This document shows, in pieces, positions 16,294-55,064 of a stretch of DNA of 64,000 nucleotides. The stretch is from Isoetes taiwanensis (lineage: Eukaryota > Streptophyta > Lycopodiopsida > Isoetales > Isoetaceae), in the NCBI GenBank assembly GCA_021234155.1, contig JAJEKV010000096.1, positions 3,843,678 through 3,907,677 on the forward strand, read 5' to 3'. Within the stretch, counting starts at the first letter, position 1. Every line of letters begins with the position of its first letter. A program made the translations under genes and the position numbers. Below the pieces are notes generated by a model, which saw only the letters and a list, made by a program, of their open reading frames with translations, ran no database searches and was not told where the DNA came from.

Positions 16294-17987
16294 TGTGACG
16301 TCCCCTACTCATTATCACGATTTGCACTCACCGTATACAAACAGGAGTTCATCCCCATACCGGCTCCATGCTAATCTGGGGCCCTTCACATGACCTTTGC
16401 AAGCGTGGCGGGTGCGATTGGGGAAGAGTGAAGGGGTCATTACCCGTCTCCCTCGGGGGCCTACCTAGGCTGCGGAAGCGTAAACATACATGTCGATAGC
16501 ACATACATCAACATCATATGACCATCACGAAGGATGGTCCTCCACATATCTGCATCGACAAAGATCAGCACATCACATAGGGAATCCTACCCAAGGCTCG
16601 GACTCAAAGGGATGACCAGGCGGCTTAGGTCTCGAGTTCATTGCGCAGAGAATTCATGACAATGGATTTGGGGCATATGAACATGGCTTAGGGTTGTCCA
16701 CTCCATCCGCCCCTCACCTGCACACTTTGCGAGTGGGCTGAAAAGTGTCGGGACATTTGTAGCCAGCGGGATGCATAGCCAAAAGGGCTATTCACGGGCT
16801 CATCCTCCCGATTCCAGATGGGGCGGTAGGGATCACTCCCTCCGAGAGATCTACATCTTGACTCAAGGTGACTAGAGGGCCTTTGCCCGTATCAGGCCTG
16901 GACCCGGAAAGTGAACACCACTTCGCGGGTGCGAGCCCATGCCTTGCCCACACACGGTGGCAAGCCATTGGACCTAGTCACAATGATCCCGGGTGGGCTT
17001 TACACACGGAGGGATCGTTCAAGAGTCGGGACATGAACCTCTTTCTCGGCCCGGTCGGCCCCTTCACCCACATCCCGGTGTGGCTCTTGTGCAGGCGAGA
17101 TCTCACGGTGTGCTAGAGAGGCTACTCTAGGAGCATCAACTACAAAGCTTTAGGTCTCTACCCCCCTTCCCAATACAAGGAGTTCATAGAGATACATCAT
17201 CCATATACTTCACAGAGAACTAAAGAACTAGATCTAATCTACAACATAGAGTTAGGTTCTTTAGTTAGAATCTGCTATCTAGAGATCTAGAGAGCTGCTA
17301 TGGGCAATCTAAGAGGCTAAACCTCACGATTCTATGGTGAAATAGGGTTTAGACTATCTAATTGGCTCAATACCTGATCCTTGAGGGGCTCCTCCTGACC
17401 TGAGCTCGACCATCCTGCTGAAACGCTCGAATCAAGGGAAACTAAGGATGCAATTCTCCCAGGCAGAGTCTGGGAGGCGGTTTTGGCTGTTGAGGCAGCC
17501 AAAACAGAGTTCTAAAACCCTAGAATCGAAAATGGGCAAGTTAGGGTTTCCCACCCTATATAGACAAGGGGGTTGGTTAGGGTTTCCAATTATCCCCTTT
17601 TGGCATGTGGGATAATTGGCAATGGGCCCACTTGCCTTTAAGGCTAGGTGGCCAAATGTGCCCACATGGAAATGTGTGCACCCAAATGTGCCCACATGGA
17701 AATGTGTGCACATTAATGAATGTGTACATTGGAAAATGTGCACATTAATTGCACCTATGGGTGTGGCCCACTTGGCATGAAGTGGCCATATGGGAAAATG
17801 TGCATCTAAATGAATGTGCACATTGTTTAATGTGCACATTAATAAATGCGCACTCCTTGCACGTTGCCCCCTAGGGCTACTAGCCTAGCTACACGTTGGC
17901 GTACACGTCAGTCGGGGTGGCGTGTGCGGCGTGTGACGGCGGTATAGTATCGTCACGGGCGTATCTTTTGTCTTTGGAAACGTCACA
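16294..17987 (-). repeat. 3' LTR of the giant chromovirus
   Basis: 1,694 bp, starts TGTGACGTCCCC and ends AACGTCACA on the + strand. It aligns along its length with 39558-43126 apart from the nested insertion there. As the element lies on the - strand, its U3 side is the high-coordinate end; 17640-17860 there is built of AATGTGCACATTAAT-like words. The other end carries CACCGTATAC and GCATAGCCAAAAGGGC blocks shared with the right LTR. Confidence 0.93.
17640..17860 (-). repeat. U3 array of TGTGCACA palindromes
   Basis: The palindromic word (A)ATGTGCACATT(AAT) and variants (AATGTGTGCACC, AATGTGTACATT, AATGTGCATCT) recur about eight times. The same array is in the other LTR at 42790-42995. Tandem short motifs in the U3 of plant LTRs often act as enhancers; that role here is inference. 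Confidence 0.75.
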
Positions 17988-18849: not shown

Positions 18850-19010
18850 ACAAATCGACATGCACGGCGATTTCTTCGGAGATGACCTTGTCGTCCCATT
18901 GCTCCATAAGCGTGGGTCTTTGCTTCACTAAATCTTTCTTAAGTACCCGTGGCGTCTTCCAGCGGTAAGTGTTTCCCTTGACCAAATATTGGAGGAATTA
19001 CGATCTCCTC
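18850..19010 (-). pseudogene. chromodomain at the integrase C-terminus (frameshifted)
   Basis: Across frames the - strand reads HLPLEDATG, then VKQRPTLMEQWDDKVISEE. This matches the tail of chromovirus chromodomains (consensus 'KWKxLPxEDATWExxxFxxxxPxLxxxWGDKVxxE'). In chromoviruses this domain follows integrase and steers integration to chromatin marked on histone H3. The first aromatic-cage strand (QYLVKG) is visible but shifted. At least two frameshifts. This places the element among chromoviruses. Confidence 0.75.
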
Positions 19011-19059
19011 GTTTTCTTGAAAGCTTTATCAAGAATCAGTGCGGAACTATTTCAATTTG

Positions 19060-20290
19060 CTCCTCGTCATTTCCAACAACGTTGGAGTGTCCAAGACTTC
19101 ATCACGGATTTGGGTATGCTTCTTCAACAAACTCCGTGGAAGACCTTATGAATCTTTAGGTGTCTTTGGCAAGTCTAGCTTGTAGGATTGATTACCTACT
19201 CTCTTGACTATTGAAAGTTCGGCCCACCTTGGAGCAAGCTTCTTGCAATTCCCGATCTGAGCCGCTGCTTCACCTTGATCTTGAGCCAAACATCATCTCC
19301 AACTTTGAACTCTCTTCTTTGTTCGATGCTTGTCGTGATGCTCTTGACGACATCTTTAGCGCCGGTGAGATACCCTCGAACTTCTTCCACAAGGCTGCGC
19401 ATATCGGCCAACATCTGGCTGCGAAACTTCCACTTTTGACGGGGTTGTGCCAAGTTAATGCGGGTTAGGCAGCGATGGCCGTAATTGATCATAAGCGGCG
19501 ACATTTGGGATGATTCTGTTTGGTGCTATTGTATGCAAACTCCACCAAGTGAATAAATTCTTCCCACATACTTTGCTTATTCGGACATAGTTTCATAGCA
19601 TGTCCTCTAAAATCTGTTGGTCGCTCCGTTTGGCCATCCGTCTGCGGATGATACGCCCGATGCTCATGGATAGCCCGTGCGGATTGTCGCAAAGAGGTCT
19701 TGCCAAAAAAGCTCATGAACATCGGATCACATGGGATATAATCTCCCTTGGCATGCCATGAAGCACGAAGATCTCTTTGGTGAAGAGCTTTCTTTGTATC
19801 CATATTTGTATACGTGGTTACGCAAGGCCGCGAAATGTGCTATTTTCGACAATTTGTCGACTACTACCATCAAAGCGTCTTTCCCTCTTGCGGTCCTTGG
19901 GGCCACGTGATAAAATCCATGCTAATCACCTCCCACTTGGCGTTTGGCACCGCTAATGGCTCGGGCCCACGGGCCGGGGCTGCTCCGCCTTTTGTCTGGC
20001 GACATAGGCTGGCATTCCTTGATGTAGCGAGCTATCTGTTTCTTCATTCTGGCCAATAGTAGGCTGCTGCGCTTTTGAAATATGTTTTCATGAATCGCAT
20101 GGCCGGCTATTGGGAACATTGTGCGTGTCGTGGAGGATCAATTTCCTTACACGATGATTGGTGCGCACAACTTGTTCTTATGGTATAACGGGTTGCCTTC
20201 CTTCTTATAATGTTTAAAGGCTTCCCGCTCCTTATCATTTCTAGCCTCTCTAGAAGCGGCTTGCCCACACTTCCTTGAAATCCACATCCG
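19060..20290 (-). pseudogene. Ty3/gypsy integrase (frameshifted)
   Basis: From the N-terminal side: YHKNKL, then RKLILHDTHNVPIAGH and YIKECQ (zinc-binding HHCC region, second cysteine pair damaged); ALMVVVDKLSKIAHF (core, around the first catalytic Asp); a broken SDRDP-like stretch; YHPQTDGQTER (19.7 kb) preceding the catalytic Glu region; EFAYN; then VGDDVWLKIK and GP at the GPY/F-like C-terminus (19208-19504). Integrase joins element cDNA to chromosomal DNA. Frame changes at about four points mean no functional enzyme. It lies next to the chromodomain, as expected in a chromovirus. Confidence 0.88.
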
Positions 20291-20460
20291 TTGGCAAGGA
20301 CTCTTCGATCTTCTTACCAAAAGTCATTTGGAGATTCGAAATTGCATTGCAATGCACTCTAGTTGTCGGGGGATGCCTTGAAAAGTGGCGTCGCTACCAC
20401 ATTGAGCTTCCCGGCTTGTGGGTGCAAAATCGGTCTTGGGTAGCAGAAATCACCCGTCCG
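20291..20460 (-). pseudogene. RNase H-integrase linker of the chromovirus
   Basis: The - strand gives linker-like sense (KLNVVATP, FGKKIEESLPTDVDF, KEVWASR) leading into integrase. Sense stops near 20460-20490 at AAGTGCTTAAAATCGG, taken as the left border of the inserted block that carries the SDG...HGKG gene. Confidence 0.5.
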
Positions 20461-28170: not shown

Positions 28171-28269
28171 GCGCCCGGGGAAAAGGAGGGAGAAGGGCGT
28201 GGCGAGGCTTCGGCGTCGCGAAGTTTCAGCACTTAAAGTGCTTAAACGCTTCGCCAAAAAGTTTACCCC

Positions 28270-28536
28270 ACTAGCGATTTTACACCCTTGTAGACTATAT
28301 CAAAGTCGTACTCTTCAAGGAACTCCATCCACCTTCTCTGCCTCGGGTTGAGGGTGTGGTTCGCGTGAATACATATTGGAGGCTCGGTGGTCTGCAGTAT
28401 CCAAGCTGGAACTTCCTTCCCAAAAGGTAGTGCCTCCAAATTCTTAATGCCCTGACAACCGCAAGCAATTTCTGATCGTGCGTGGGGTAGCGCGTTTCGG
28501 CGTCGTTCATCTTCCTGGAATCATACGCTACCACAC
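28270..28536 (-). pseudogene. chromovirus RNase H, C-terminal part
   Basis: The - strand reads VVAYDSRKMNDAETRYPTHD, then QKLLAVVRALRIWRHYLLG, then, with shifts, LNPRQRRWMEFLEEYDFDIVY and KGVKSLVG, the classic second half of gypsy RNase H (degrades the RNA of RNA:DNA hybrids during reverse transcription). Its first part is 3.75 kb away at 32.3 kb because of the inserted TIR element. Sense ends near 28270, the right border of the next insertion. Confidence 0.9.
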
Positions 28537-29280
28537 AAGTCGTATTTAATTAAAGTGGGACTCATTCCATTCCCACTTTTTTGCGGAACTCTGTTATTTT
28601 ACACAAGAAGGAGCACCCCGACCCGAAAACTGTCCTTAATTCGATTTTTTGACTGTTACTGTGCATCCAAGCTTTCTCCGGTTTTTTGTGGGATAGCGAG
28701 TCGAGTCCCTTTTTTGGGGCTTATTTGTCATCAAAATAAAGAGTTTTTGGCGTGAGGGGTGAATTCCTTTACCATGACATTTTGGCTCTATTTTCTTAGG
28801 TGGGTAGACAAGAGATCACAAATTCCAACAAAAAATAAGCAAATTGTTTACTTAATTACCAAAAAATACTAGTTTTGAGATACCTTATATTTATAAATGG
28901 GCTCATTACAAATATATATTACAGGTGGTGAAGCGACCATAGTGGTCGTATTATCACAATGATTACACCATCTTCACACATGAACCACATAGTGGCTTGG
29001 CGGGTGGAGCTCTGTCAAGTCACGAACAACTTCTGGGGCGATAGAAATTTGTATGAGGAGTTCCTTCATAGGCCACGTGCTTGTATGTCCAAGCGATGTC
29101 ACCACCCTCTTTCGCATCTTTCTTCAATGGGTGGTCTTTTCATTTGCTCCCAAGCATGTACTATCCGGGTCGAGATAATCGCAAAAAAGACAAAATCCGT
29201 TAGTCAAGTGATGCTCACGAGGGCAAAAAATTAAAATAAAACAGGTTCTTAGGGCCATTTTGGAAAATACGGGCTGAGAG

Positions 29281-33904: not shown

Positions 33905-35262
33905 ATGTAGTCAGCGGCATTCCTCGCCGTCGTCGTCCGAATGAGCGTCCCAATCTCCCAACTCCGCTAGAGCTGCACTCATGGCGTAAAGGCGGTTTCT
34001 TTGTCCTATGGCCTGTTTGGAAGCACTGGAAACAAAAGCTGCTTTTCTATGCACTCTGCCTCTTTTTCCTTGGGCATCGCACGCAAAAGGATCGCCTTCT
34101 GCTTTGGAGTAGTTTGACCCCTCCTGCTTGTCCTTGAAGGACACCTGCTTCTTCTCCTGCTGTTTCCCCTGGTTTCCACCATGTGGGGCTCTAGTTGGAC
34201 CTGGACTGGCTGCTCTAGGGCTATAGCTTCTTGTCGCCTTGCCTTTATAATGGAAATCACTGCTTTGCACGCCCGCTATTACGAGGTCAGTCCCCGCAAG
34301 CTTATAGCCTTGGACTCAACTTAAATCTTGTCCTAGGGTTTATTGCTCTCCACAAGCTTCGGATCTCCTCATTCAACCCCTCAATATAGCTTTCTCTTTG
34401 CATGCTTCTCTTCCAACTTTGGCACATCTGACCTTAGCCTCATGAATTCCTCGTATATTTTGGACTGATTTGTTTCCCACTGTTGGAGCCTATAGAACTG
34501 CTGCATCATGCTGGACTTATGTTCCCTTGGGACGTAATGGCGCTTGAAGGCTTTAGCAAACTTCCTGAACTTACAAGCATCCCTGCTTAAGCCATGTGCC
34601 TTTGCATAACCCTTCCACCAAATCCGAGCGGCCCCTTTCAAGTTGGCTGTTGCAACTCTGCCTTTGTCTTTATCTTTCATGCCATAAGCATTGCCGTACT
34701 CACTCATTTCGTCCAGCCATGCCTCTGCTTCCAATCGACTGTTCTCCCCAGAAGCTGTTCGATTCAGGGCCTTCCATACATTGCCCAGTGCGGAATCTAC
34801 CTTCTTCTGGTAGCCAGAGGCCCTGGTATCTCTTTGTTATTCCTCTGGGGTGTTCCTCTGCCTTCCCTCTTTAGTGTTCCTTTGCCTTCCATCTGTTTGG
34901 TTCTGGGCCTGCTCTTCTTCTTCCTCGGAGTCGAAGTCTGAGTCTGAGCTTGAGTCGGAAGATTCCGGACTGGAGGATCTCCTTCTCTTGCTCCTCTTCT
35001 TGTCCCTTCACGCTCTCAGGAGCTGATGCTTCAGGCAACGGCGTTGCCCACGAACCCACTCACCTTTGCGGGGACACCAAGGCCTTTATCTGCTCACCGT
35101 CCTCATCACGGGATATCTCCTCCTCAGGGTCATGGGTTCCATTTCTTCAAATAGGTTCCTTGCCGGGGGTGGTCTAGGCGGGGTCTGTTCTTCTCTAAGT
35201 TTTCGCAGTTGTCGTTCCCCTGCGTTTAGGCCTCTAGCTGCATACACAAGTGATTCATGGCT
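33905..35262 (-). pseudogene. chromovirus gag
   Basis: Core block 34734-34381 reads RLEAEAWLDEMSEYGNAYGM, AARIWWKGYAKAHG, FKRHYVPREHKSSMMQQFYR and LQQWETNQSKIYEEFMRL, the retrotrans_gag pattern (W..F...F...Y.P). Upstream is an acidic/serine stretch (SSSPESSDSSSDSDFDSEEE) and a coiled region (GERQLRKLREEQT) starting near 35262; downstream is a basic nucleocapsid-like part (34270-33911). A clear CCHC knuckle is not visible. Gag would form the particle. The start is uncertain because frames shift twice in the first 300 bases. Confidence 0.85.
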
Positions 35263-35419: not shown

Positions 35420-36898
35420 CTAGTCTTGAAATCGTAGGTAAGGCGGGTTGTCCTCAAGGAACTTCTTAACTTGGGCCGTTCCTACCGAAAGTGACCCAAG
35501 TTCACGATGGCGCTTCCGGCGAGCCCCCTGAAGGCTCTCGCCCGGATCTTCCACCACGGATGGGATGTGAGGGGCGGCGGTCACAGCCAATCTTCGCCTG
35601 ACGTCGATGGGGTATGGCGAAGTCGAAGAGGTCGAGTGCCATTGCTCTCTTGACCAAGACAAAGATACTTTCGACATTTTGCCGCTATGCGAGCATGCCC
35701 GCCGAAGCCCGAGAGTGCAATCAACATGAACCTCCTTCCTCCCTCGATCGAGGTTGAACTGCGGGTGTATCACCGCTATTCTCCCATCGGCCCAGCAGTG
35801 GCAAGTAGTACTGGCGACATTGCCGTTGTGTGTCGCGAGAAGCTTCTCCACTTGTCGGCCTCCGCTCTATGTCGCCACTGCATACTCGTCGACCCTATCT
35901 CGGTGAGTTCGATTTTATCCTATTCCTCCTCCTCTTGCGGGGGGTGGTGTTGGGGACTTCGGCATTAGGATGCTCGTGGTTTTCCACGGATCCCCATCTG
36001 TTCTTGGAGGGCGAGGAACTCCTCCTCTGTTGGCAGCCTCCGCCGTCCATCATTTGCCCGATCTCCGCTTTGTAGGCGGATATCGGAGGTCGCTTCCCTG
36101 TGTAGGTGTCGGCTTCTCGACTGACCCCGGAAGTCAGAGACTCGGACGATGAAGTCGTCCATGTCGGTCTACCCTTGATTGGTGGAAGCGATTCATCCAA
36201 TCGAGCTCCCTCTCCCCTGCATTAGGGAAGGTTACGGATGTGTTGAGGAGTAGATACTCCTCTCGTTGATGATGATAGGGGCTAGGCTTGTGATGCCTAG
36301 CCCGAGTGGGAAACAACTTTCGATGCCTCGCCTCCATTTCGAAGTTGATCAGCTCCTACTACGCTTGGCGCCGTTCTTCATCACGAGTCGAGCTCCAGGT
36401 GTATTCCTCGTCATCCTCCTCTTCTTCTTCCTTTACTTCTTGCTCACGCTATCTTTGCGAAGCATCTACTCTTCTGCTTGGGCTGCTATGGGGTCCACCT
36501 CCATCGGAGGGATAGAGTTGCTCCCATCGGGTTTTATTGTGATGGGACAAGAAATGGCTAGAGGCGGTGTAGGAGAAATACTTGGTCACGTTGGCGCCGG
36601 GACCATGTAGTCGAGTAACCCTGGCGCCTTATTGGTTAAGTACTTGGCGATGTTGGGGACATCACCCAAAGCCTTGAAGGGATTGGCAGGGGGCGAAGTA
36701 TCCTATACAAGGGGGACTGAACAAGGGAGGGCCCTACCCTAGCTTGAAAGTCTGCTAGCACTTGCCTATATCTTTGGTGTTGCATTTAGCGTAGCTTGGA
36801 TGTCAATTTCTTTCCCAAAGACTTGGAAGTGTCGTTGACATCCGCCCGGCAAGATGGGCCCGGCTGATGTACCATCGCCCGAAGTCGGCGGTGGCCAT
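35420..36898 (-). pseudogene. accessory gene B of the chromovirus, unidentified acidic protein
   Basis: It starts at ATG 36898, about 115 nt after a CTATAAATA box, and begins MATADFGRWYISRAHLAGRM. Later sense, over several frames: NPFKALGDVPNIAKYLTNKA, an acidic run (EEEEEDDEEYTWSSTRDEERRQA), REEYLLLNTSVTFPNAGERE, LPTEEEFLALQEQMGI, THNGNVASTTCHCWADGRIA, FNLDRGRKEVHVDCTLGLRR, ending VKKFLEDNPPYLRFQD. I do not recognise it. It lies between gene A and gag, on the element's sense strand, and shares its promoter layout with gene A (two palindromes plus TATA). The closing VGTAQVKKFLED vaguely recalls the start of a histone fold but is far too weak to name. Confidence 0.5.
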
Positions 36899-37010: not shown

Positions 37011-37021
37011 CTTATTTATAG
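37011..37021 (-). promoter_or_regulatory. TATA box for accessory gene B
   Basis: The - strand reads CTATAAATAAG about 115 nt upstream of the gene B ATG; the counterpart of the gene A box at 39001. Confidence 0.55.
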
Positions 37022-37203
37022 AATTGGGGGAAACCCTAATTTTTGGATGACCTAGATTTTACTGAGATCAGGTGATTCTGATCTATTAAGGGATGCAATT
37101 GCAAGTTTGAAGACTATTTCTAGGGTTTGAGCATGCTAAGGACAAATAATGAGCCTATTGCAACAATTTGGAGATCATTTGGTGAAGCAAATAAATAGTG
37201 CGA

Positions 37204-37272
37204 GGTCTCCTGCGTTGCGCCCGGACCGATTTTGAGAATCTCATTTTTCATTGGTCGGCGGCGTGTGAGACA
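37204..37272. repeat. 70-bp palindrome, copy 1 (upstream of gene B)
   Basis: GGTCTCCTGCGTTGCGCCCGG ... GGTCGGCGGCGTGTGAGAC with centre GAGAATCTCATT. The weakest-preserved of the four copies. Confidence 0.8.
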
Positions 37273-37401
37273 TGGGTCCCTAATTGGGCTAGGCTTACTC
37301 AATTTAAGTGATCTAAGGCTGTAATTCCACTAAACTCATCGAGTTAGGCAGAATTGACCCCTTATTTGGTCGATTTGGAGCTGTTTTGGGCATTTTTGGG
37401 C

Positions 37402-37472
37402 ATGGTCTCACACGTTGCGCCCAGCCCGAAAATGAGAATCTCATTTTCTGTCCTGGCGCGACGTGTGAGACA
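37402..37472. repeat. 70-bp palindrome, copy 2 (upstream of gene B)
   Basis: Best copy: GTCTCACACGTTGCGCCCAG pairs with CTGGCGCGACGTGTGAGAC, around the self-complementary centre AATGAGAATCTCATT. Confidence 0.9.
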
Positions 37473-37614
37473 TCGTCTCAATTTTGCTCAAAAGCTCCAA
37501 TTTGACTAAAACAAAAGCTAGAATTCTATAACTTAACTTAATTAAGCTAGATCAGACATGTTATTTACTTCCAAAATTCTTTATATTAACAAAATTCTGA
37601 TTATTTACAAAATC

Positions 37615-37890
37615 TCAAAGGCGTTCTCCCTTGATGTGTGAGGCCATTTGCATGTCTGCTTCATGAGGGTGACCCTCTTTCGTGTAACCGTCGCGGTAGA
37701 TGAATCTTCAAAGTCTTTGCACTATTTTTAGCCTCTGGCGCCTCGCGTAAAGCACAACAACATTTCATCCGTCACCGCATGTTTGTATTATACTCTGCAT
37801 GACCTCTCGGACCAAGCGTTGAAAGCGGTGCAGGGGGATCGAGAGTCCGTAGCTCCTCTGGAAGTGCCGGATTTCCTTGAGCGCCCTATT
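37615..37890 (-). other. histone H3 fold domain within gene A
   Basis: Aligned without gaps to H3 in two long blocks. ALKEIRHFQ and FQRLVREV correspond to ALREIRKFQ and FQRLVREI; FEDSSTATVTRKRVTLM corresponds to FEDTNLCAIHAKRVTIM. The segment from REV to ALREAPEA is 27 residues, as in H3. The C-terminus MASHIKGER matches LARRIRGER. Three frame changes (near 37767, 37715, 37650) separate the blocks. The N-tail before it (PRAPGKKRAGRKKLEN) is basic but lacks the ARTKQT start of H3. Confidence 0.88.
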
Positions 37891-38898
37891 CTCCAGCTTC
37901 TTTCTGCCGGCCCGCTTCTTTCCTGGTGCTCTGGGAGGCTTCGGCTTTGGTGGGGGTGGCTCAGAGTCTGCTTCGCCGCGGGGTACTCCACCTTCAACTG
38001 TCCTCACCCGATGCTCCTGAAAGTAGGCATTGTATGCCTCCCACTTCTCCATATAGGAGTTGTGCTCCCTAATTCTCTTCTGATAGACCTTGACAGGGTC
38101 TATCACATACGCCTCCCGTTGGGGTCGCGGGGCTTTAACCCTATCCCACATCGGAAAGGTGGGGTTTATGGTGTCAGGCCTCTCACGCTCACGTGCTACA
38201 CGCTTTCGGGGCTTCTTCCTCTGACTAGGGGGTTTGAAGAGCTTGCTCCCTCTGCGCCAGGCACGTAGTCTTCATCCGAGTCGTCGGTAGTAGGCGGGGT
38301 CTCTTCGCCTGATGGTTCATTGATGTTGATCCCGTTCACCGCTTGCAGAGCCCTCCGACCTTCCTCTTGCGCCTTAATGGCTTTGGCCTTCCTCTTCTTG
38401 GGCTGGGGGCGAATTAGTCGTCTTCGGAAACTCTTCGTCCTCGGCTCCGTGGCTCTTTAGCTTCATACTGGCGATGAAGCGTGCAAGATCGGCTTCTTAG
38501 GGGCTGAGTGTTGTTGTTTTGCTGCTCTTCTCTTCCTTGTTCTTCTGCGGGTGGGTCGGCCTTTGGGGTTGTTCTGGTACGTTGGTACGTCCGCTTTGCT
38601 CCGTACTCCTCAGGTGGTTGGGCCTCGGCTGGGGTTGCTCTGGCTGTTGATCGCCTGCTCGCGCTCCTGCCGCTCCCGCTTCTTCCCTCCTCTTGTGCGA
38701 TCTCCTCGAGGATTTGGTGCATGATGTCGGCGGCCGTCCTCTATGAGCTCCGTATGGTCGCTCGATCCGATCCGCATCCTCGCTCGAAGAAGATTCATGG
38801 AGAAGGCGTTCGAAGGACTCTCGAAGAGGTAGGGTACCGGTATTTGGAGGATCCGCCGGCTAGGCTTCCTTGCGGTTTGTTTGGTCGCGGGCCATCAT
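37615..38898 (-). pseudogene. accessory gene A: histone H3 fold on a long N-terminal extension
   Basis: Starts at ATG 38898, ~105 nt after a TATA box. The first ~335 residues are hydrophilic: LLHESSSSEDADRIERPYG, a basic Arg/Lys/Pro region (38722-38414), TTDDSDEDYVPGAEGASSSN, then YVIDPVKVYQKRIREHNSYM. From 37890 the H3 fold follows: alphaN RALKEIRHFQRSYGLSIP, alpha1 HRFQRLVREVMQS, alpha2 start ALREAPEA, alpha2 end and loop DFEDSSTATVTRKRVTLM, and C-terminal DMQMASHIKGER ending at TGA 37617-37615. Span from alphaN to end is 92 codons, the same as canonical H3. A TGA/ATG overlap at 37768-37765 and two more shifts break it; codon 13 is TAG. HFQ and SIP recall centromeric H3, but loop 1 has canonical length. 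Confidence 0.85.
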
Positions 38899-39000: not shown

Positions 39001-39010
39001 CTATTTATAG
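39001..39010 (-). promoter_or_regulatory. TATA box for accessory gene A
   Basis: The - strand reads CTATAAATAG in a GC-rich setting, 103 nt upstream of the gene A ATG. Same spacing class as in gene B. Confidence 0.6.
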
Positions 39011-39086
39011 GGGCCAATTTTTAGGTCAACTTTTAACTACCTTTTGGGTTGCCTAAAGCATCTAAAACACCTAATTAAGCAGAAAA

Positions 39087-39160
39087 GGCCTCACCGCGTT
39101 CGCCCAGCCCAAAAATGAAAAAGTCATTTCCTGTCACCGGGCGCGACGTGTGAGACATGG
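39087..39160. repeat. 70-bp palindrome, copy 3 (upstream of gene A)
   Basis: GGCCTCACCGCGTTCGCCCAG ... CGGGCGCGACGTGTGAGACA with centre AATGAAAAAGTCATT; same layout as copies 1, 2 and 4. Confidence 0.85.
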
Positions 39161-39293
39161 TGGGGCCCACTACTAAATTTTGTACTTTTTTGAACATGTA
39201 ACATGCTAAGTCTACTGATTCTTAGCTTAAAATTAGAATTATCAAGTTATTTCACTTTGTAGTTTACAACTTTTTTGGTGCCTAAAATGTTGA

Positions 39294-39360
39294 ATGTCTC
39301 ACGCACGTTAGCCCGGCAAAATGAAAATGTCATTTTTCGTCTGGGCGGCGTGTGAGACCA
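39294..39360. repeat. 70-bp palindrome, copy 4 (upstream of gene A)
   Basis: TGTCTCACGCACGTTAGCCC ... GTCTGGGCGGCGTGTGAGAC with centre AATGAAAATGTCATT. About 205 bp from copy 3, the same distance as between copies 1 and 2. Confidence 0.85.
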
Positions 39361-39539
39361 CCTACCACGGATGTTGGCTCACCAATTTTAGTCTTTTAAC
39401 GTTTTTATTCATTTTAGCATTACTAGCTTAGCATAACTACAAAAATGAGAAAAAAATTTCCCATTTTTCGAGGTTTAAAGATCCTATCAAGTTAGTGCTC
39501 TTTTTGGGAACATGGCGCTGCTTTGCTCTTGGTTTCCAA

Positions 39540-39557
39540 GAACATAGCTCGATACCT
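39540..39557 (-). promoter_or_regulatory. primer-binding site (initiator Met tRNA-like)
   Basis: Immediately after the 5' LTR on the - strand: AGGTATCGAGCTATG, close to the initiator-methionine primer site TGGTATCAGAGC used by many plant gypsy elements; one base substituted and one missing. It fixes the element's orientation. Confidence 0.75.
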
Positions 39558-42500
39558 TGTGGGCGTCCCCTACTCATTATCACGGTGCACTCACCGTATA
39601 CAAAACAGAGAGTTCATCCCCATACCAGCTCCATGCTAATACTGAGGGCCCCTTCACATGACACCGCAACCGTGGACGGTGCGGTGGGAAGAGTGAAGGG
39701 GTCATTGCACCCCGCCTCCCTCGGGGCCTACCTAGGCTGCTTGAAGCGTAAACATACATGTCGAGCACATACATCAACATCATCATATGACCATCACGAA
39801 GGATGGTCCTCCACATATCTGCATCGACAAAGATCAAGCACATCACATAGGGAATCCTACCCAAGGCTCGGACTCAAAGGGATGACCGACGGCTTGGGTC
39901 TCGAGTTCATTGCAAAGCGAGAATTCATGGCAATGGATTTGGGTGGCATATGAACATGGCTTAGGGTTGTCCACTCCATCCAGCCCCTCCTTGTGCACAC
40001 TTTGCGAGTGGGCTGAAAAGTGTCGGGGACTGGATCAGAGCTCACCGGATGCATAGCCAAAAGGGCTATTCACGGGCTCATCCTCCCGATTCCGATGGGG
40101 GGGTAGGGATCACTCCCCTCCGAGATCTACATGCGACTCAAGGTGACTAGAGGGCCTTTGCACGTATCCGAAATTTGGACCCGGGAAAGTGAACACCACT
40201 TCACGGGTGTCGAGCCCATGCCTTGCCCACACGCAGCGGCAAGCCATTGGACCTAGTCACAATGATCCCCAGGGCTTTACACACCAGGAGGGATCGTTCA
40301 AGAGTCAGGACATGAACCTCTTTCTCGCCCGGTCGGCCCTTCACCCACATCCCGGTCGGCTCTTGTGCACAAGCCGAATCCACGGTGTGCTAGAGGCTAC
40401 TCTAGGAGCATCAACTTCAAGGCTTTAGGTCTCTACCCCCTTCCCAATACAAAGGAGTTCATAGAGATACATCATCCATATACTTCACAGAGAACTAAAG
40501 AACTAGATCTAATCTACAACATAGAGTTAGGTTCTTTAGTTAGAATCTGCTATCTAGAGATCTAGAGAGCTGCTATGGGCAATCTAAGAGGCTAAACCTA
40601 CTGATTCTATGACTGAAATAGGGTTTAGACTATCTAATTGGCTCAATACCTGATCCTTGAGGGGCTCCTTCTGACCTGAGCTCGACCATCCTGCTGAAAC
40701 GCTCGAATCAAGGGAAACTAAGGATGCAATTCTCCCAGGCAGAGTCTGGGAGGCGGTTTTGGCTGTTGAGGCAGCCAAAACAGAGTTCTAAAACCTGTTG
40801 CCCCTTGAAGTGGCAACATGAAGAAAAGATGAAGATATGAAGAAAATTCTAAGTATTGGAGGAGCTATTAAGGAAAGGTATCAGGCTGAAAGAGAATCTA
40901 GGCCAGGTGAGCACCCTTGCCAAATCCTTTAGCCAAAACTAGCCACCCTTGATTTTTCCCAAATTTTTTGAGCCTATCTCCTATTTTTCCTTGAATTTCC
41001 CCTATCGCTGGCCAAATATTCCCCAAAAATGCCTAAAAATCTATACCTTTGCCAAGTGGCATCCTAGTCATCATCCTAAAGTACCAAAGATGTCAAAAAG
41101 TCAAGTGAAAGTCAAAATAGAAAGTCAAAAGGCACACTTTCCAAAAAATACCCTTGCCACGTCATCAAGAGTCAAAATGCCACCTAGGATGGCCACCTTG
41201 CTCACCAAAATGCTTTGTCATCCAACTTTGGTTATATCTTTGCCACTTGGGTCAAAATCATGCCACCTCATCAAAAAATATCAAGGGGCATTTAAAAGAA
41301 AATCCACTTGGGCAAAAAGCCATGTTTGACCTTGCCACATCATCCTCCATTATGCCAAGTCATCATTATACCATGTCCAGTCACCATTGATTCACCTTTT
41401 TTTAGCCAAAAAATCAAAGTGCCATTTTTCAAAACTTGACCACATCACCATGTTGCCCCAATGAAAATATGCCACCTGGCACAAAAAATTTCCAAAAAGA
41501 CCTTATATAGACCTTTGAATTCCAATTCTTGGGAATCGTGCCCTTTGAAAAAAATATAAAAAAATTGTCCTATTCTACCCCCGACCTAGATTCCTTTTCA
41601 CCAATCCCCCCCCCGTGGCTCACCCGGGCGTGGGGCGGTGGAGAATACCGAATCCCGTGGGCAAGACCGTCAATTTAATAGTTAGCCCGGATCGAGCTAT
41701 ATATACCTGGGCTGACTTTTTGATTTAGGCCTGTGGGATATATCCACTGAAGAAGATCTGGCAAAAAAACCATTAGGGTTCTATGATTCTCGGCTTCCCG
41801 CGCACTTTGAATGATGCAGAGCAGTTCGCCTGATCATAACCGACTTCTGGAACCAATCGAATTATGAAAAGGATGCCGAATTAATGGAGATCATACCAAG
41901 AACAGAGCATTGCCTATTTTTGGGAAAGAAGAGTTCGTGCCCATATGCAGACAAATTAGAGCTCTAACTACCCTGACACAGGTCTATAAAGATGATCCGA
42001 GCCGTATTCCAATTAAGGAGAGGAGATTTTTGATTAGAAACCCGCCCTTGTTCTTGAAAGCAAAGATTTTGGAAGTTCTGATACCAATTCTATTTCAGAG
42101 TGATCGAATGGATTACCTGACAAGTGTATCATGTTCCTAAGATAATCTGAGAAAAGTTTTCTTGAGCAATCCATGGTGTTTCCCCTTTTCTTCAATCGAT
42201 TTCTGAGTGTTTTTTTCAAAAAAATAGTTTTTTCCCATTTTTTATGTGCCAGTCCACTTCTGGCGAACTTTGCCAAGAATTTCCCATCAATCCTGATCAA
42301 CAAATGAGTTGAAATCAATTCAAACTATCTGATATCATCTAGATTTGGCTTAACAAATAGCTATTCTGCCAGGATTTGCTCGTATATTTCATTTGCATTC
42401 AAAGGAAATTTGACTGCATCCCAGAGCTTTTTCTTCAATCATTTTCACCACCTTGTTCCAGAAAACATCCTAGTTATACACCTGCATTCACATATCACCT

Positions 42501-43126
42501 TATTTCCTCACATTTGCACATCTTTTCTCATCCCCTCACCACACATTTGGCTCTCTGCACCCTAAACACAGAATTTGGCAAGTATCTTTTAGAAAATCCC
42601 ACAATTTAGAGATTTGTGCATCACAGTTTTTGCAAGGATTCTGTGAAAGGCAACAAAACCCTAGAATCGAAAATGGGCAAGTTAGGGTTTCCCACCCTAT
42701 ATAGACAAGGGGGTTGGTTAGGGTTTCCAATTATCCCCTTTTGGCATGTGGGATAATTGGCAATGGGCCCACTTGCCTTTAAGGCTAGGTGGCCAAATGT
42801 GCCCACATGGAAATGTGTGCACCCAAATGTGCCCACATGAAAATGTGTGCACATTAATGAATGTGTACATTGGAAAATGTGCACATTAATTGCACCTATG
42901 GGTGTGGCCCACTTGGCATGAAGTGGCCATATGGGAAAATGTGCATCTAAATGAATGTGCACATTGTTTAATGTGCACATTAATAAGTGCGCACTCCTTG
43001 CACGTTGCCCCCTAGGGCTACTAGCCTAGCTACACGTTGGCGTACACGTCAGTCGGGGTGGTGTGTACGCGTGACGAGGCAGTATAGTATACGTCCTGGG
43101 GGCGTATACTGTGCTGGAACGTCACA
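39558..43126 (-). repeat. 5' LTR of the giant chromovirus, with nested solo LTR
   Basis: Starts TGTGGGCGTCCCC and ends AACGTCACA (+ strand). Matches 16294-17987 throughout except for 40796-42655 plus its 5-bp duplication; without these it is about 1.70 kb. Small indels against the other LTR are numerous, which argues for an old insertion. Confidence 0.93.
40796..42655 (+). mobile_element. solo LTR nested in the 5' LTR
   Basis: 1,860 bp starting TGTTGCCCC and ending GGCAACA, with the 5-bp duplication AAACC at 40791-40795 and 42656-42660; the undisturbed sequence in the other LTR at this point is CTAAAACCCTAG. TATA-like words (CTTATATAGACC at 41503; GCTATATATACC at 41696) suggest a + orientation. 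It has no coding region; 41080-41480 is rich in TGCCAC(C/A)TCATC words. Likely left by LTR-LTR recombination. Confidence 0.9.
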
Positions 43127-44447
43127 AGATGGATGTCTTGGGAGGAGGTGAAGGATAAAATAAAAGGCTCCAAGGTAGATAGGGATATCTTTCAAGCTTT
43201 TATGAATGTATTGCAACAATATCAGGAGTTGGCAATGAACACCAATTATTGGACTTTGAATGGCAGTATTGGATACAAGGTCAGTGCAATTTATAAAGGA
43301 CTCTTAAATCCTAAACCCTCAAGAGCTACCTTGTTGTGGAATTGTAGTGAGGGTCAATTAGCCAAGAACTGTGCTAAAGGTTGGAAATCCTACATGGCAA
43401 GCAGGATTCAGACATTTAGATGGCTAATCTTACATTAAAGTCTTCATACAAATGCAGTAAGGAGCAAATATGTTCAGAATACTTCAATGTTGTGCCCCTT
43501 AGGGTGTGGAGAGAAGGAAACATCCAACCATGTCTTCCAATGCCCCTGGCTCCAGGAGTTCTGGACTTGGACTTCTCAATTGAATAAAGGTTCACTTGGT
43601 GACCTGAGGCATTTCTTAGAAGCTGAGTCGAGAATAGTGATCACTACGAGGGCCTTATGCTGCTGGTGCATATGGAAACATAGAAACAGAGTAGCAATAG
43701 AAAAGAAACGACCAAACCTCACCTGGATCAAAATCAGTTTCTTACAGGCATTAACAGACTCAGCAAATGCACACAGAATGGTTAAAGGGAAAAGTTATGA
43801 CAAGGAATGGGACAGAATCGGGAAATTCTGTGGGAATTTCAATTTCTTCTTTCTATTACTAACTGATGCTAATGGTTTGCTTCACAGAACAAATGAAGAG
43901 AATGACTGAAACTGGTGCTCCCTCCAGATGGGGACATGATCGATTGTCAAGGACCGAGGTAGCTGACACTTTTATTATGTTGAAGCAGGAAGTGGTACAC
44001 GCCATGGCTATACAGAAAATGCTGATAAGAAGGGAGGTCTGGTGCTTCAACAACCTCAAGCCGTACTTCACACGACTTTTTCATAAGTGGCAGCAGAGGA
44101 GAGAGGCGCATATTCTACTGCTCCTTGTTTTCACTTCCTTCTCTGTTAAACAGTTAGATAAGATGCTCTGCATCTTTGGCAACTCGGCTGTAGCTGATAT
44201 AACCATACATGACCTTATAGAAGTGGATGATTAGGACTATGGAATAGTATGACAGTTGTCAGTTGCAGCTTTTTGAACAGCTAGATTTAATGTATCTCAT
44301 AACTAACTTTTCAGTTATGATCTAAAATGATGCTGCTAATGTTAGAATTTGAGCAGCAATGGAGGTATATCTTTAGATTCCTCCGGGTGATCCACTCACC
44401 TTTTTTCCTTATGTATCTTTTTTAAATGAAATATAAAAACTACCGTG
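43127..44447 (+). pseudogene. LINE 3' part with zinc-binding RT-associated domain
   Basis: Continues the LINE ORF after the giant insertion: WMSWEEVKDKIKGSK, then WTLNGSIGYKVSAIYKGL, ASRIQTFRWLILH, a stop, and CPLGCGEKETSNHVFQCPWL with FWTW. This is the zf-RVT domain (C-x-x-x-C...H-x-x-x-x-C) found at the C-terminus of plant L1-type ORF2. Two in-frame stops or shifts (43438, 43909). The tail to 44447 is 3' UTR. Confidence 0.9.
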
Positions 44448-44466
44448 CCTTCAAAAAAAAAAAAAA
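44448..44466 (+). other. LINE poly(A) tail
   Basis: A run of about 14 A after CCGTGCCTTC marks the 3' end of the LINE. The next base enters the copia-like segment (CAAGATACACAAC), which has an uninterrupted counterpart at 46816. Confidence 0.85.
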
Positions 44467-45769
44467 CAAGATACACAACTATTTATGCAATAGGAATGTA
44501 TAATTCTCAATATCTTCAAAGCTTTCAATTCAATTTCAACTTCATCGAATTTTAACGAGTAAAACTATTGCAGACAATATCACAACCATTAAGTCATTAA
44601 TCTCATCATTTCCATCATTTGTCAGCTTTAAAAAACCCTGTTCCTTCAGGAAATCATTTATACAAGCATACCATTCTCTGGGTGATTGTTTTAGGCCATA
44701 AACAGCCTTTTTCAATTTCCACACTTTTCCAATTCCCTTCTCAAAGCCCTGAGCTTGATACATGTATACCTCTTCTTTTAAATCAGCATTTAAGAATGCA
44801 GTGCATACATCCATATGATGTAGATCTAAATTAAAAGCATTTGAAATTGCAATAATAGTTCTTATGCTGACCAACTTTACCACTGGAGAATATGTTTCTT
44901 CATAGTCAATGCCTTTCTTCTGTGAGTATCCCTAGGCAACTAATCTTGCCTTATACATTGGAGTACCATCAGAGTTCATTTTCAGCTTCTAAGTCCATCT
45001 GTTTCCTATTAGATGCTTTCCTTTTGGTAAATCCACCAATTCATATGTGCCAGTTCTCTCAAAAGAGTTCATTTCTTCCAACATGGCATGTTTCCATTTA
45101 TCCCCTTCAATACCTTTGATTGCATTTTCAAAAGTTTCTGGTGTCCCAACTTGCATTATCATTAAAGCTTCATCATTGTTTGATTCTTGATCCAATCTAT
45201 TGCTTCTCCCATCTGCCCTTCTTCCATACTCTGATATATCCATCTTTAGTTCCTCTCTAAGTCTTTCCCCTTCAGGCTTTCTTCTTTTTGTTTTCATGTT
45301 ATCTTTCATGTTTTGATGCTCAGCAATTTTTTTCTGGAATTTCAGTGGCTCTTGTGGCTGTTTCTTGCTCATTTTCATCTCCTCCTTCTGTGTCTGTATC
45401 AGATTCCATTCCTTGGTCAGTGTTTTCTGCTGTGATAGTCTCCTTGTTTGTCAAATTAATATCATTACTGTTTGCATTCTGTTTTTCATCTTCCTTTTCT
45501 TTTCCAGGTTTGTATAACACGTTTTCAACAAAGCTTACATCCCTGCTTACCACAATGTTTTTCTTTAAGGGGTTGTACATTCTGAAACCTTTTGAATTTT
45601 CATCATATCCCACTAGATATGTGATCATTGACCTGTCATCCAACTTCTTTCTCATTTTCTGAGGTATATGAGTGTAACCTAGACATCCAAACACCTTAAA
45701 TTTGTCATAGTTTGGCAATTTTCCTGACCACATTTGATCTGGACTTTTTCCTTTTGTGCAACTCGTTTC
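44467..45769 (-). pseudogene. Ty1/copia pol fragment, copy 1
   Basis: On the - strand: integrase C-terminal part with FKVFGCLGYTHIP, RKKLDDRSMITYLVGYDENS and KGFRMYNPL; an acidic linker; ETFENAIKGIEGDKWKHAML and NSFERTGTYELVDLP; then RT start NRW, KGIDYEETYSPVVKLVSIRT, DVCTAFLNADLKEEVYM and KKAVYGLKQSPREWYA. It stops before the YVDD box. No LTRs, gag or RNase H. Its right end fuses in frame-like fashion to the Gly-rich gene (KKYEPG|LEKRKR). An in-frame stop occurs in the RT part (44930). Confidence 0.92.
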
Positions 45770-46620
45770 CTTTTTTCCAAACCAGGTTCATATTTCTTGT
45801 CTCCATTTATTCCATGAAGTCCGTTTCTCTTTTTAACATGACGGCATTTTCGCGGCACAGGAGATGGACTCGGTTCTGGGCTCGCAGGTGGAGGTGGAGT
45901 TAAATAATGGCCATGCACGCCAATAAAGTTTGTCACGTATTTTAATTTTGCCACTCATGACAAAGGCAAATCCTTTTTTGCAACTCGTGATAAAAATTCA
46001 AACTCCAAAACCGTGACAAAAGATTAAAATTTGACTCTCGTGACAAATTATGTCACTCTCTTGTCATGCCCGACAAATATTTGTCATGCGTGACAAATTT
46101 TAATCACTTTTTGTCACAGTGATAAATTTTTATCACGGGGGCCCACTATTTAGCGTCAAAAGTTTTAGTATAGAACTGAAATCACTATAAGGCGCAAGGG
46201 TCTTTCGTCACGGGCAAATAGGGAGGAGCAAATTCTACACTGGAACATGAAACAAATTCCATAAACATGGCAATGGAAGAAGAATGTACTTGATATTGCT
46301 TGTGGAAAGCTTGGGTCATACACTGTCAATAAGAAACGACTGAACTTCCTTCAATATACTGAACCTCGTTTAACAGAGAACTCAATCTCATAAATAGAAT
46401 CAATGACAATGGCAAAAAATACATTGTAGGTTCAAAATAAAAAACATATACTACTAAGAGTTTTTAACATATATTCAGTTATCGACCATTTCCTCCAGGT
46501 CCACCTGATCCGCCAGGAGCAGCTGGCCCTCCGTTTCCGCCCGCACCGCCATTGCCAGGCCGTACTCCGCATTCTTCGTTTGCATCTGATCCAGCTCCAT
46601 CTGGAAAACCAGGTTCACTT
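45770..46620 (-). repeat. Gly-rich gene array, unit 1
   Basis: Unit of ~850 bp holding, from right to left, the promoter, the N-terminal coding part (LTPPPPASPEPSPSPVPRKC, 45770-45954) and, to its right at 46484-46612, the C-terminal coding part of the neighbouring copy (GSDANEECG, GGAGGNGGPAAPGGSG). Repeated three more times to 50398. Confidence 0.85.
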
Positions 46621-46621
46621 T

Positions 46622-48117
46622 TTGATCACGGTGATAAATTTTTATCACGGGCAATATAAGATATCAAATGTTGCAGTCAATGTAATATTAAGGTTCTTCC
46701 TGCCCTTCCTAACTTTTCCAAGAAATTAAATAAAGAGAACCATCATGTTGTAAAATTAAATTGTTAATCAATCTAATGACAACAATTTTCCAAGGCAATA
46801 TAATCTTGCATTCTTATGTTCAACAAGATACACAACTATTTATGCAATAGGAATGTATAATTCTCAATATCTTCAAAGCTTTCAATTCAATTTCAACTTC
46901 ATTGAATTTTAACAAGTAAAACTATTGCAGAGAATATCACAACCATTAAGTCATTAATCTCATCATTTCCATCATTTGTCAGCTTTAAAAAACCCTGTTC
47001 CTTCAGGAAATCATTTATACAAGCATACCATTCTCCATAAACAGCCTTTTTCAATTTCCACACTTTTCCAATTCCCTTCTCAAAGCCCTGAGCTTGATAC
47101 ATGTATACCTCTTCTTCTAAATCAACATTTAAGAATGCAGTGCATACATCCATATGATGTAGATCTAAATTTAAAGCATTTGAAATTGCAATAATAGTTC
47201 TTATGCTGACCAACTTTACCACTGGAGAATATGTTTCTTCATAGTCAATGCCTTTCTTCTGTGAGTATCCCTAGGCAACTAATCTTGCCTTATACATTGG
47301 AGTACCATCAGAGTTCATTTTCAGCTTCTAAGTCCATCTGTTTCCTATTAGATGCTTTCCTTTTGGTAAATCCACCAATTCATATGTGCCAGTTCTCTCA
47401 AAAGAGTTCATTTCTTCCAACATGGCCTGTTTCCATTTATCCCCTTCAATACCTTTGATTGCATTTTCAAAAGTTTCTGGTGTCCCAACTTGCATTATCA
47501 TTAAAGCTTCATCATTGTTTGATTCTTGATCCAATCTATTGCTTCTCCCATCTGCCCTTCTTCCATACTCTGATATATCCATCTTTAGTTCCTCTCTAAG
47601 TCTTTCCCCTTCAGGCTTTCTTCTTTTTGTTTTCATGTTATCTTTCATGTTTTGATGCTCAGCAATTTTTTTCTGGAATTTCAGTGGCTCTTGTGGTTGT
47701 TTCTTGCTCATTTTCATCTCCTCCTTCTGTGTCTGTATCAGATTCCATTCCTTGGTCAATGTTTTCTGCTGTGATAGTCTCCTTGTTTGTCAAATTAATA
47801 TCATTACTGTTTGCATTCTGTTTTTCATCTTCCTTTTCTTTTCCAGGTTTGTATAACACGTTTTCAACAAAGCTTACATCCCTGCTTACCACAATGTTTT
47901 TCTTTAAGGGGTTGTACATTCTGAAACCCTTTGAATTTTCATCATATCCCACTAGATATGTGATCATTGACCTGTCATCCAACTTCTTTCTCATTTCCTG
48001 AGGTATATGAGTGTAACCTAGACATCCAAACACCTTAAATTTGTCATAGTTTGGCAATTTTCCTGACCACATTTGATCTGGACTTTTTCCTTTTTTGCAA
48101 CTTGTTTCCTTTTTTTC
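46622..48117 (-). mobile_element. copia-fragment insertion, copy 2, inside the Gly-rich gene
   Basis: The pol segment 46816-48072 is nearly identical to copy 1 but carries an 18-bp deletion removing LKQSPR of the conserved YGLKQSPRxW motif. Left and right edges both show AACCAGGTTCA (46616 and 48118), a probable ~11-bp target duplication, so the whole 1.5 kb is a discrete insertion. 46620-46815 is an extra segment with no readable gene. The vehicle that moved this LTR-less fragment is unknown. Confidence 0.7.
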
Positions 48118-48950
48118 AAACCAGGTTCATATTTCTTGTGTCCATTTCTTCCATGAAGTCCGTTTCTCTTTTTAACATGACGGCATTTTCGCGGCACAGG
48201 AGATGGACTCGGTTCTGGGCTCGCAGGTGGAGGTGGAGTTAAATAATGGCCATGCACGCCAATAAAGTTTGTCACGTATTTTAATTTTGCCACTCATGAC
48301 AAAGGCAAATCCTTTTTTGCAACTCGTGATAAAAATTCAAACTCCAAAACCGTGACAAAAGATTAAAATTTGACTCTCGTGACAAATTATGTCACTCTCT
48401 TGTCATGCCCGACAAATATTTGTCATGCGTGACAAATTTTAATCACTTTTTGTCACAGTGATAAATTTTTATCACGGGGGCCCACTATTTAGCGTCAAAA
48501 GTTTTAGTATAGAACTGAAATCACTATAAGGCGCAAGGGTCTTTCGTCACGGGCAAATAGGGAGGAGCAAATTCTACACTGGAACATGAAACAAATTCCA
48601 TAAACATGGCAATGGAAGAAGAATGTACTTGATATTGCTTGTGGAAAGCTTGGGTCATACACTGTCAATAAAAAACGACTGAACTTCCTTCAATAGACTG
48701 AACCTCGTTTAACAGAGAACTCAATCTCATAAATAGAATCAATGACAATGGCAAAAAATACATTGTAGGTTCAAAATAAAAAACATATACTACTAAGAGT
48801 TTTTAACATATATTCAGTTATCGACCATTTCCTCTAGGTCCACCTGATCCGCCAGGAGCAGCTGGCCCTCCGTTTCCGCCCGCACCGCCATTGCCAGTCC
48901 CTACTCCGCATTCTTCGTTTGCATCTGACCCAGCTCCACCTGGAAAACCA
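48118..48950 (-). repeat. Gly-rich gene array, unit 2
   Basis: As unit 1. The N-terminal coding part 48112-48293 is cut by copia copy 2. The C-terminal part at 48823-48950 belongs to the ORF that starts in unit 3. Confidence 0.85.
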
Positions 48951-49142
48951 GGTTCATATTTCTTGTGTCCATTATGAAGTCCGTTTCTCTTTTTAGCATG
49001 ACGGCATTTTCACGACACAGGAGATGGGCTCGGTTCTGGGCTCGCAGGAGATGGACTCGGTTTTGGGCTCGCAGGTGGAGGTGGAGTTAAATAATGGCCA
49101 TGCACGCCAATAAAGTTTGTCACGTATTTTAATTTTGCCACT
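48823..49142 (-). pseudogene. small Pro/Gly-rich protein, copy in units 2-3
   Basis: Around 105 codons: a short lead, LTPPPPASPKPSPSP, an internal duplication adding ASPEPSPSP, a TGA in place of the Arg codon before KCRHAKKRNGLH, then GFPGGAGSDANEECG and GGAGGNGGPAAPGGSG to a TAA. Collagen-like glycine spacing suggests a structural or disordered protein. The family is not known to me. Confidence 0.5.
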
Positions 49143-49900: not shown

Positions 49901-50032
49901 GGTGGAGGTGGAGTTAAATAATGGTCCGTCGAGGCAGGAAGGGTTGCATCTCCCCTTCCTGGGGTCTAGAGGTTCCACGGGCAGCTAGAGAATCGTGGCG
50001 ACACACGATTCGTCCCCGACTTGGCCATGCAC

Positions 50033-50255: not shown

Positions 50256-50398
50256 CCCACTATTTAGCGTCAAAAGTTTTAGTATAGAACTGAAATCACT
50301 ATAAGGCGCAAGGGTCTTTCGTCATGGGCAAATAGGGAGGAGCAAATTCTACACTGGAACATGAAACAAATTCCATAAACATGGCAATGGAAGAAGAA

Positions 50399-55060: not shown

Positions 55061-55064
55061 ACTA

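Follow-up and report, generated by a model that had tools for sequence, protein, structure and literature searches.

What use could a retrotransposon make of a histone? The question is raised by a 64,000-nucleotide stretch of the genome of Isoetes taiwanensis (assembly GCA_021234155.1, contig JAJEKV010000096.1, positions 3,843,678 to 3,907,677; hereafter the window), whose minus strand carries one Ty3/gypsy long terminal repeat (LTR) retrotransposon with an LTR pair, a target site duplication (TSD), a primer-binding site (PBS), gag, RNase H and integrase. Between the PBS and gag, on the element strand, lies an accessory gene, gene A (38898-37621), which encodes the fold of histone H3. An original prediction made from the letters of the window had described the gene in this slot and had taken the host for a fern; the host is a lycophyte. 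Here we show that gene A belongs to the element in at least three subfamilies and that its H3 fold is under strong purifying selection in the sampled copies, and we weigh what its product might do.

An H3 gene in a fixed slot of the element

In the window copy the fold is interrupted by the three frame changes that had been predicted and by one in-frame stop. A frame-tolerant alignment with H3 nevertheless covers 37884-37621, 264 nt, which is the exact length of H3 residues A47 to R134, and the stop codon of gene A follows one residue beyond the aligned fold, as in H3. The alignment scores 151, and the best of 400 shuffled sequences 50. Taken alone, the portion beyond alpha1 scores 82 against 37 (0 of 400), and the next best fold-like place in the whole window scores 43 (both strands, 426 tiles). 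A single open frame, 38271-37768, passes Pfam Histone at 29.7 bits for a cut-off of 26.4 (residues 102-160) and also aligns with H3 chains of known structure (best E 2e-5). A chance likeness to H3 is rejected by the shuffle tests, and the predicted fold of canonical length, from alphaN to the C-terminus, stands. The earlier picture of gene A as an H3 C-terminus fused to an extension was incomplete: it overlooked the N-terminal H3 tail, MARTKQTARK, with which the gene opens (38895-38865). The tail scores 38, above all 400 shuffles (maximum 27) and above every other place in the window (at most 28). About 300 acidic, proline-rich and charged residues separate this tail from the fold. An intron-bearing host gene was also rejected as an explanation, because typical plant introns are U-rich and the sense strand of the extension is only 12% T.

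Many further copies are present in the genome, which was searched over 1,658,258,908 bases in 1110 contigs. The Pfam Histone model finds at least 150 places, the best of 8705 first-look candidates; among these listed matches 15 score 164-165 bits, the eight that were read being canonical host H3, and 135 score 144.5-154.7 bits, many of this group having frames that stay open for 400-494 codons. We sampled 20 of the 135, nearly all picked for long frames (337-494 codons). The H3-fusion frame is open in all 20 and complete from the start methionine in 16, and the copies fall into two subfamilies, g1 (16 copies, gene A starting MPRFKLTVDLKK...) and g2 (four copies, ME..KQVYKRKP...), between which gene A is 41-43% identical. 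The PBS upstream of the H3 gene is an exact TGGTATCAGAGC in 15 of the 20; downstream, within the 9.9 kb pieces fetched, a second accessory gene (gene B) is found in 19 and gag in 17. Four relatives score 142.6-150.4 bits with Pfam Histone, and a profile of ten matches H3 in the PDB at a best E of 9.5e-68.

The window itself belongs to a third subfamily, g3. Its gene A piece, used as a query, finds at least 150 places (6743 candidates), namely the window itself plus 149 further loci with 65-80% identity, of which six were fetched (L030-L035; L numbers denote genomic pieces). In three of these (L030, L031 and L033) an open frame runs from MARTKQTARKP to where the fold ends. L034 still contains the DNA of the tail, but its frame is interrupted; L035 reads MACTKQTARKP; and in L032 the tail is altered and the fetched piece shows no PBS when up to two mismatches are allowed. 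Exact coding of MARTKQTARKP occurs at 419 places in the genome, against 0 for a reversed-pattern control, and its synonymous spellings vary among the 100 places examined.

With the window capsid as a query at least 150 gag places are found (12375 candidates), and among the listed matches gene A lies no more than 15 kb upstream of gag, on the same strand, in 33 pairs. The start-to-start spacing is 3209-3470 bp in 27 of these; two other arrangements occur. For a sample independent of H3 we took the first eight gag matches without a listed gene A partner and fetched 1.9 kb at the expected slot, which contains the H3 fold of gene A in seven of them (L040 is without it). Because copies are many, the slot is fixed, frames are open and dN/dS is low (see below), gene A is shown to be an element gene in at least g1, g2 and g3. 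A one-off insertion of a host gene is thereby rejected; the original prediction had expected it to be marked by a lack of other gypsy copies with H3 in the same slot. Gene A types g1 and g2 are also intermingled with respect to their gag backbones: at least two switches are forced by the gag tree, where the gene A tree splits with 100/100 support (15 of the 20 copies usable), so that the accessory gene recombines between elements.

One relative is complete: L013 and the neighbouring piece L029 together hold an 11,169 bp element with TSD CAATC, a PBS and LTRs at L013:1316-2999 and L029:827-2583 (Kimura two-parameter, K2P, distance 0.0455). Its gene A is open for 453 codons; gag, protease and reverse transcriptase share one frame, followed by RNase H and integrase (Pfam) and, directly after the integrase, a chromodomain in L029 (Pfam Chromo PF00385, E 2.9e-8). 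Gene B is lacking from this element. On LTRs, TSD, PBS, domain order and chromodomain the lineage is a chromodomain Ty3/gypsy element, or chromovirus; the domain fragments of the window copy follow the same order. The chromodomain that had been predicted for the window element is there a degenerate motif below significance, and an HP1 chromodomain alignment tried in the window proved to be at chance level (2 of 100 shuffles reach its score) and in the wrong place; the prediction is borne out by the complete relative. The description of the element as giant likewise holds in part, since the 26.8 kb spanned by the window copy include an insert of 1.86 kb within the 5' LTR as well as about 8 kb of other sequence that separates the RNase H match from the integrase match, against 11.2 kb for the complete relative.

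The arrangement had been thought undescribed, and a search of open-access literature by titles, abstracts and exact phrases, with subscription journals mostly outside its scope, found no retrotransposon-encoded histone. The word 'histone' occurs 0 times in a review of additional open reading frames in plant LTR elements (PMC7264820) and 0 times in two Isoetes genome papers (one of them PMC8566536). Repeats with similarity to plant proteins were filtered out of the published library (PMC8566536); the H3-carrying family may have been overlooked because, as we infer, its elements were among those removed. In such genomes, part of the genes annotated as histone H3 may accordingly belong to transposons.

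Constraint on the fold and the kind of H3

Selection was estimated as pairwise Nei-Gojobori dN/dS, the ratio of nonsynonymous to synonymous substitution rates, from the copies other than the gag-chosen ones. For the fold the ratio is 0.036 in g1 (116 of 120 pairs usable), 0.019 in g2 (6 of 6) and 0.047 in g3 (15 of 15), and for the extension it is 0.135 (34 of 66), 0.153 (6 of 6) and 0.216 (15 of 15), respectively. The g1 capsid gives 0.030 (12 usable pairs from eight copies; 9 of 15 stretches intact). The H3 fold of the sampled copies is thus shown to be under strong purifying selection, like the capsid.

The decay of the window copy can be set against that of its own LTRs, which have diverged by a K2P distance of 0.075; over 1672 aligned sites they differ by 30 indel events, of which 27 shift the frame. 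At this rate 2.1 frame-shifting indels are expected in the fold since insertion and 10.3 in the whole of gene A; three are counted in the fold (P of three or more, 0.36), and about nine frame changes lie between the ten open pieces of gene A, which were picked by eye. Were the entire divergence of the fold from H3 (40 of 86 residues identical) neutral, one would expect it to contain 23.7 frame shifts. Since the three observed fit the post-insertion figure and not the neutral one, we conclude that the fold diverged for the most part while the gene worked. Some of the indels may be assembly errors, as the published assembly consists of polished Nanopore reads (PMC8566536).

The folds of g1 and g2 are identical to host H3 at 81-85 of 96 positions and are split from plant CENH3 sequences with 98/97 support. 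They keep RVT and the H3-H3' contact residues, the roles of which in H3 are established. As judged from its sequence, the g1/g2 fold is a canonical H3 and not a CENH3. The chaperone-recognition stretch is altered, reading AFAIL (AFAVL in L017, AFALL in L022) or THAIL where the host has SSAVL or STAVL, and the tail differs too: ARKS, the context of K9 and K27, occurs in none of the 20 copies, and all 20 have P where K9 would be, before a conserved (S/T)TGGK-like motif. In g3, H3 residues 1-9 are exact in four of the six copies, S10 is changed to P and the rest of the tail is replaced.

The extension fused to the fold had been predicted to be absent from cellular H3. When the g1 extension was searched alone against 5.8 billion proteins no relative was found (3282 candidates, none with E <=0.01), and the whole g1 gene A matches 3963 proteins, the 120 best of which cover 23-39% of the gene. 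For the 168-residue window piece 39 candidates were returned, none significant, in a search limited to proteins of at most 294 residues, and scans of viral contigs found no relative.

Possible uses of an element-encoded H3

We favour, with a probability of about 0.55, the reading that the H3 of the element was taken from the host and is deposited in nucleosomes, where it would favour chromatin suited to the element through either escape or bait by way of its tail. Under this reading gene A would have been captured from a host H3 gene, and protein A would pair with host H4 and enter nucleosomes, leaving chromatin that favours the element; the g1 and g2 proteins would escape H3K9 methylation, the g3 tail would act as bait for chromatin readers or writers, and the extension might tether the protein. 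More tentatively, and at less than even odds, the lineage may make nucleosomal H3 variants of two kinds, those of g1/g2 being unmethylatable at K9 and K27 and that of g3 offering a K4/K9 tail displaced by 300 residues as bait for writers, readers or the element's own integrase, so as to rewrite the chromatin around its copies. If so, the host genome would hold selfish nucleosomes. Retroelements are silenced via H3 methylation, and some chromodomain elements read the mark (PMC9289625, PMC3350952). An H3 encoded by the element would be a direct weapon or an addressing system in this conflict. The subfamilies, at least three in number, differ in their tails and folds and so provide a natural experiment showing what a parasite requires of H3.

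Parts of this picture have precedents. The orchid element Gypsy_Pa_2799 is, like the window element, a large plant Ty3/gypsy element (25 kb) with an extra host-type open reading frame kept over several replication rounds; its captured gene, in another plant group, is a 2-ODD/AlkB demethylase of N6-methyladenosine (m6A) in RNA and not a histone (PMC9289625). Single H3 histones of DNA viruses are 73-87% identical to those of their hosts, comparable with the g1/g2 values above; some have foreign or longer N-terminal tails, two H3s from metagenome-assembled genomes carrying about 170 extra residues, much as gene A carries its extension, and their chaperone site reads SAIL or TAIL where FAIL-like and HAIL forms are found here (PMC9145170). 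Those H3s sit in DNA viruses, whereas gene A sits in a retroelement with many genomic copies and measurable selection. The bracovirus histone H4 is a core histone encoded by a parasite, incorporated into the nucleosomes of the host and active through its tail (PMC5423620, PMC9145170); it is the H4 of a wasp virus and not of a retroelement. Plant chromoviruses combine gypsy with a group II chromodomain missing cage aromatics 1 and 3, as appears by eye to be the case here, and the portion of that study considered makes no mention of an H3 gene (PMC3350952). Gene A would thus appear to be an analogue of the viral and parasite histones, a host-derived core histone kept by selection.

Several observations weigh against deposition in nucleosomes as the use of gene A, or against the evidence assembled for it. 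The K9 tail is missing in g1/g2 and present in g3, so that a single shared use of the tail cannot hold, and the g3 tail, with a dN/dS of 0.245 (seven usable pairs from six copies, including two altered tails), is less constrained than the fold. The g3 fold may stem from either canonical H3 or CENH3. By eye, the chromodomain of the complete relative, QYLVKWKHLPVEDATW, retains just one of its three cage aromatics, 1 and 3 being absent, and is plant group II-like, a group defined by lacking cage aromatics (PMC3350952); because they appear to be missing, it is doubtful that the element itself reads H3K9 methylation. The sampled copies were picked by H3 score, similarity or open frame, which lowers the dN of the fold, and the capsid control leaves this bias in place. 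Among the eight gag-chosen copies none has a complete open gene A (longest sense frames 110-269 codons), indicating that many copies are decayed, and only two have the exact tail start. In the window fold, neutrality is not rejected by the stops alone (one against 2.6 expected if neutral, P 0.26) or by the share of conservative changes alone (0.35 against 0.24, P 0.06).

Rather than entering nucleosomes, a soluble H3-like protein might occupy H3 chaperones or silencing enzymes and their partners (H3K9 methyltransferases, readers) outside them, as a mimic or decoy of the tail. That the exact ARTKQTARK N-terminus is kept in g3 at so many places despite a divergent fold would suit such a role, as would the altered chaperone-recognition stretch of g1/g2. 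VANC, the product of VANDAL transposons, reportedly belongs to another kind of transposon and is no histone. It is an example of an element protein countering host silencing, in its case sequence-specifically (PMC10398659, PMC5735166). We nonetheless regard the decoy as unlikely: g1 and g2 are without the tail and yet the fold is the most conserved part of their gene (dN/dS 0.02-0.04), and a pure tail decoy would have no need of it.

It is also conceivable, although we think it improbable, that the protein acts in particles, compacting or protecting the complementary DNA (cDNA) of the element or bridging it to Gag or integrase. The gene adjoins gag, its product joins a basic fold to a long linker, and the fold is constrained like the capsid; a single H3 without H4 would, however, depend on a cytoplasmic supply of host H4, most of the invariant residues belong to the set typical of nucleosomal H3, and there is no clear second histone in the window accessory region or in gene B.

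The original prediction had further raised mimicry of centromeric H3, and a gene derived from CENH3 could steer the element to centromeres. For g1/g2 the link is not supported, as they group with canonical H3, and only g3 lends it anything: its fold is divergent, on a long branch weakly placed on the CENH3 side (83/88, with two of the six copies in the tree), and shares ALKEIRHFQ and RVTLM with Arabidopsis CENH3, while the window fold is nearly tied in identity between maize CENH3 (39/85) and H3.1 (40/85). In plant CENH3 sequences loop 1 is two residues longer than in H3. The 14 residues between the end of alpha1 and (A/C)LQEA in g1, g2 and g3 match the H3 length, and the window fold scores 151 with H3.1 against 107 and 100 with CENH3. 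We consider a centromeric origin improbable.

Finally, a captured H3 gene without function is hardly credible, even though the window copy is broken, no gag-chosen copy shows a complete open gene and plant LTR elements are known to capture genes (PMC7264820), given the many copies in one slot, the many open frames, dN/dS far below 1 and the exact tail in hundreds of places.

Layout of the window element and its accessory genes

The features of the window element are collected in Table 1. The PBS, resembling TGGTATCAGAGC, is of what we take to be the initiator tRNA-Met type.

Table 1. Features of the H3-carrying element in the window (positions counted from the first nucleotide of the window).
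Feature	Position	Strand	Basis or remark
5' LTR (TGTGACG...CACA)	39558..43126	-	self-BLAST against 3' LTR reaches 39564; ends read from sequence
Insert within 5' LTR, 1.86 kb	40796-42654
3' LTR	16294..17987	-	self-BLAST reaches 16299; ends read from sequence
TSD AGATG, both flanks	43127-43131 and 16289-16293
PBS resembling TGGTATCAGAGC	about 39546..39557	-	read from sequence
Leader hairpin 1 of gene A	39292..39362	-	present in relatives
Leader hairpin 2 of gene A	39085..39160	-	present in relatives
TATAAATA before gene A	39002..39009	-	shortly before the gene in 6/6 g3 relatives
Gene A start: M-MAR, frame change, TKQTARK (H3 tail residues 1-9)	38865..38898	-	open in L030, L031, L033
Gene A extension, acidic, proline-rich, charged; several frames in window copy	37885..38864	-	open in relatives
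Fold of histone H3 from alphaN to C-terminus (88 codons), broken by three frame changes and an in-frame stop	37621..37884	-
Hairpin after gene A, first in gene B leader, -42.5 kcal/mol	37395..37475	-
Second hairpin of gene B leader	37201..37275	-
TATAAATA before gene B	37013..37020	-
Accessory gene B, decayed	35420..36898	-	assigned by position and by eye
gag with capsid (34836-34384) and CCHC remnant	33911..35058	-	capsid passes Pfam Retrotrans_gag; CCHC by eye
RNase H fragment of pol	28266..28549	-
Integrase, decayed	19050..20435	-	weak SH3_Tf2-1 match
Chromodomain remnant (QYLVK.../GKHLPLEDATG)	18948..18997	-	by eye; resembles QYLVKWKHLPVEDATW of the relative

Upstream of each of genes A and B in the window stand two palindromic hairpins followed by a TATAAATA box; the ATG comes 111 nt (gene A) or 122 nt (gene B) past the start of the box. 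The TATA before gene A and the hairpin after it are found in all six g3 relatives, and both leader hairpins in five, L035 having one. When the leaders of A and B are compared, the stretch after the hairpins is similar (0 of 500 shuffles reach the score), and those between the hairpins (183 of 500) and before them (496 of 500) are at chance level. The TATAAATA boxes followed by similar leaders, from 39009 and 37020, suggest that each gene has its own promoter inside the element. Upstream ATGs are below expectation in all 13 g1/g2 leaders that have a PBS and a complete gene; no such depletion is seen in the window leader (12 against 11.6 expected).

The same near-perfect palindrome of about 70 nt recurs in the gene A and gene B leaders, and in L033 its three copies share one swapped stem, as if they had been homogenised within the element. 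The case for these hairpins as RNA structure rather than as DNA palindromes is weak, because compensatory changes are few (4 of 17 pairs), three of them come from one element whose three hairpins changed together, and the covariation term is -0.11.

Gene B is open in relatives, in stop-to-stop frames of up to 502 residues, and has a dN/dS of about 0.11 in g1; it yielded nothing usable in Pfam or the PDB (window 36898-35420; L010, L017, L020, L024, L027, L028). Its C-terminus looks H2A-like by eye, and gene B was tried as a second histone and rejected, a profile comparison with gene A giving a probability of 0.2%. Scans of the window accessory region for H4, H2A and H2B gave scores of 31-44, without a shuffle comparison. 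The interval from gene B to gag holds one more small accessory frame, gene C (L017:6915-7421 and equivalents), which is matched in 17 of the 20 g1/g2 pieces.

Outside the element, the window holds Copia-like pol fragments (by eye) at 44465-50399, spaced by 2339 bp and 98% identical, which mark a local duplication, and on the plus strand, at 54402-56859, a second and more distant gypsy-like pol with reverse transcriptase, RNase H and integrase pieces that are 21-39% identical.

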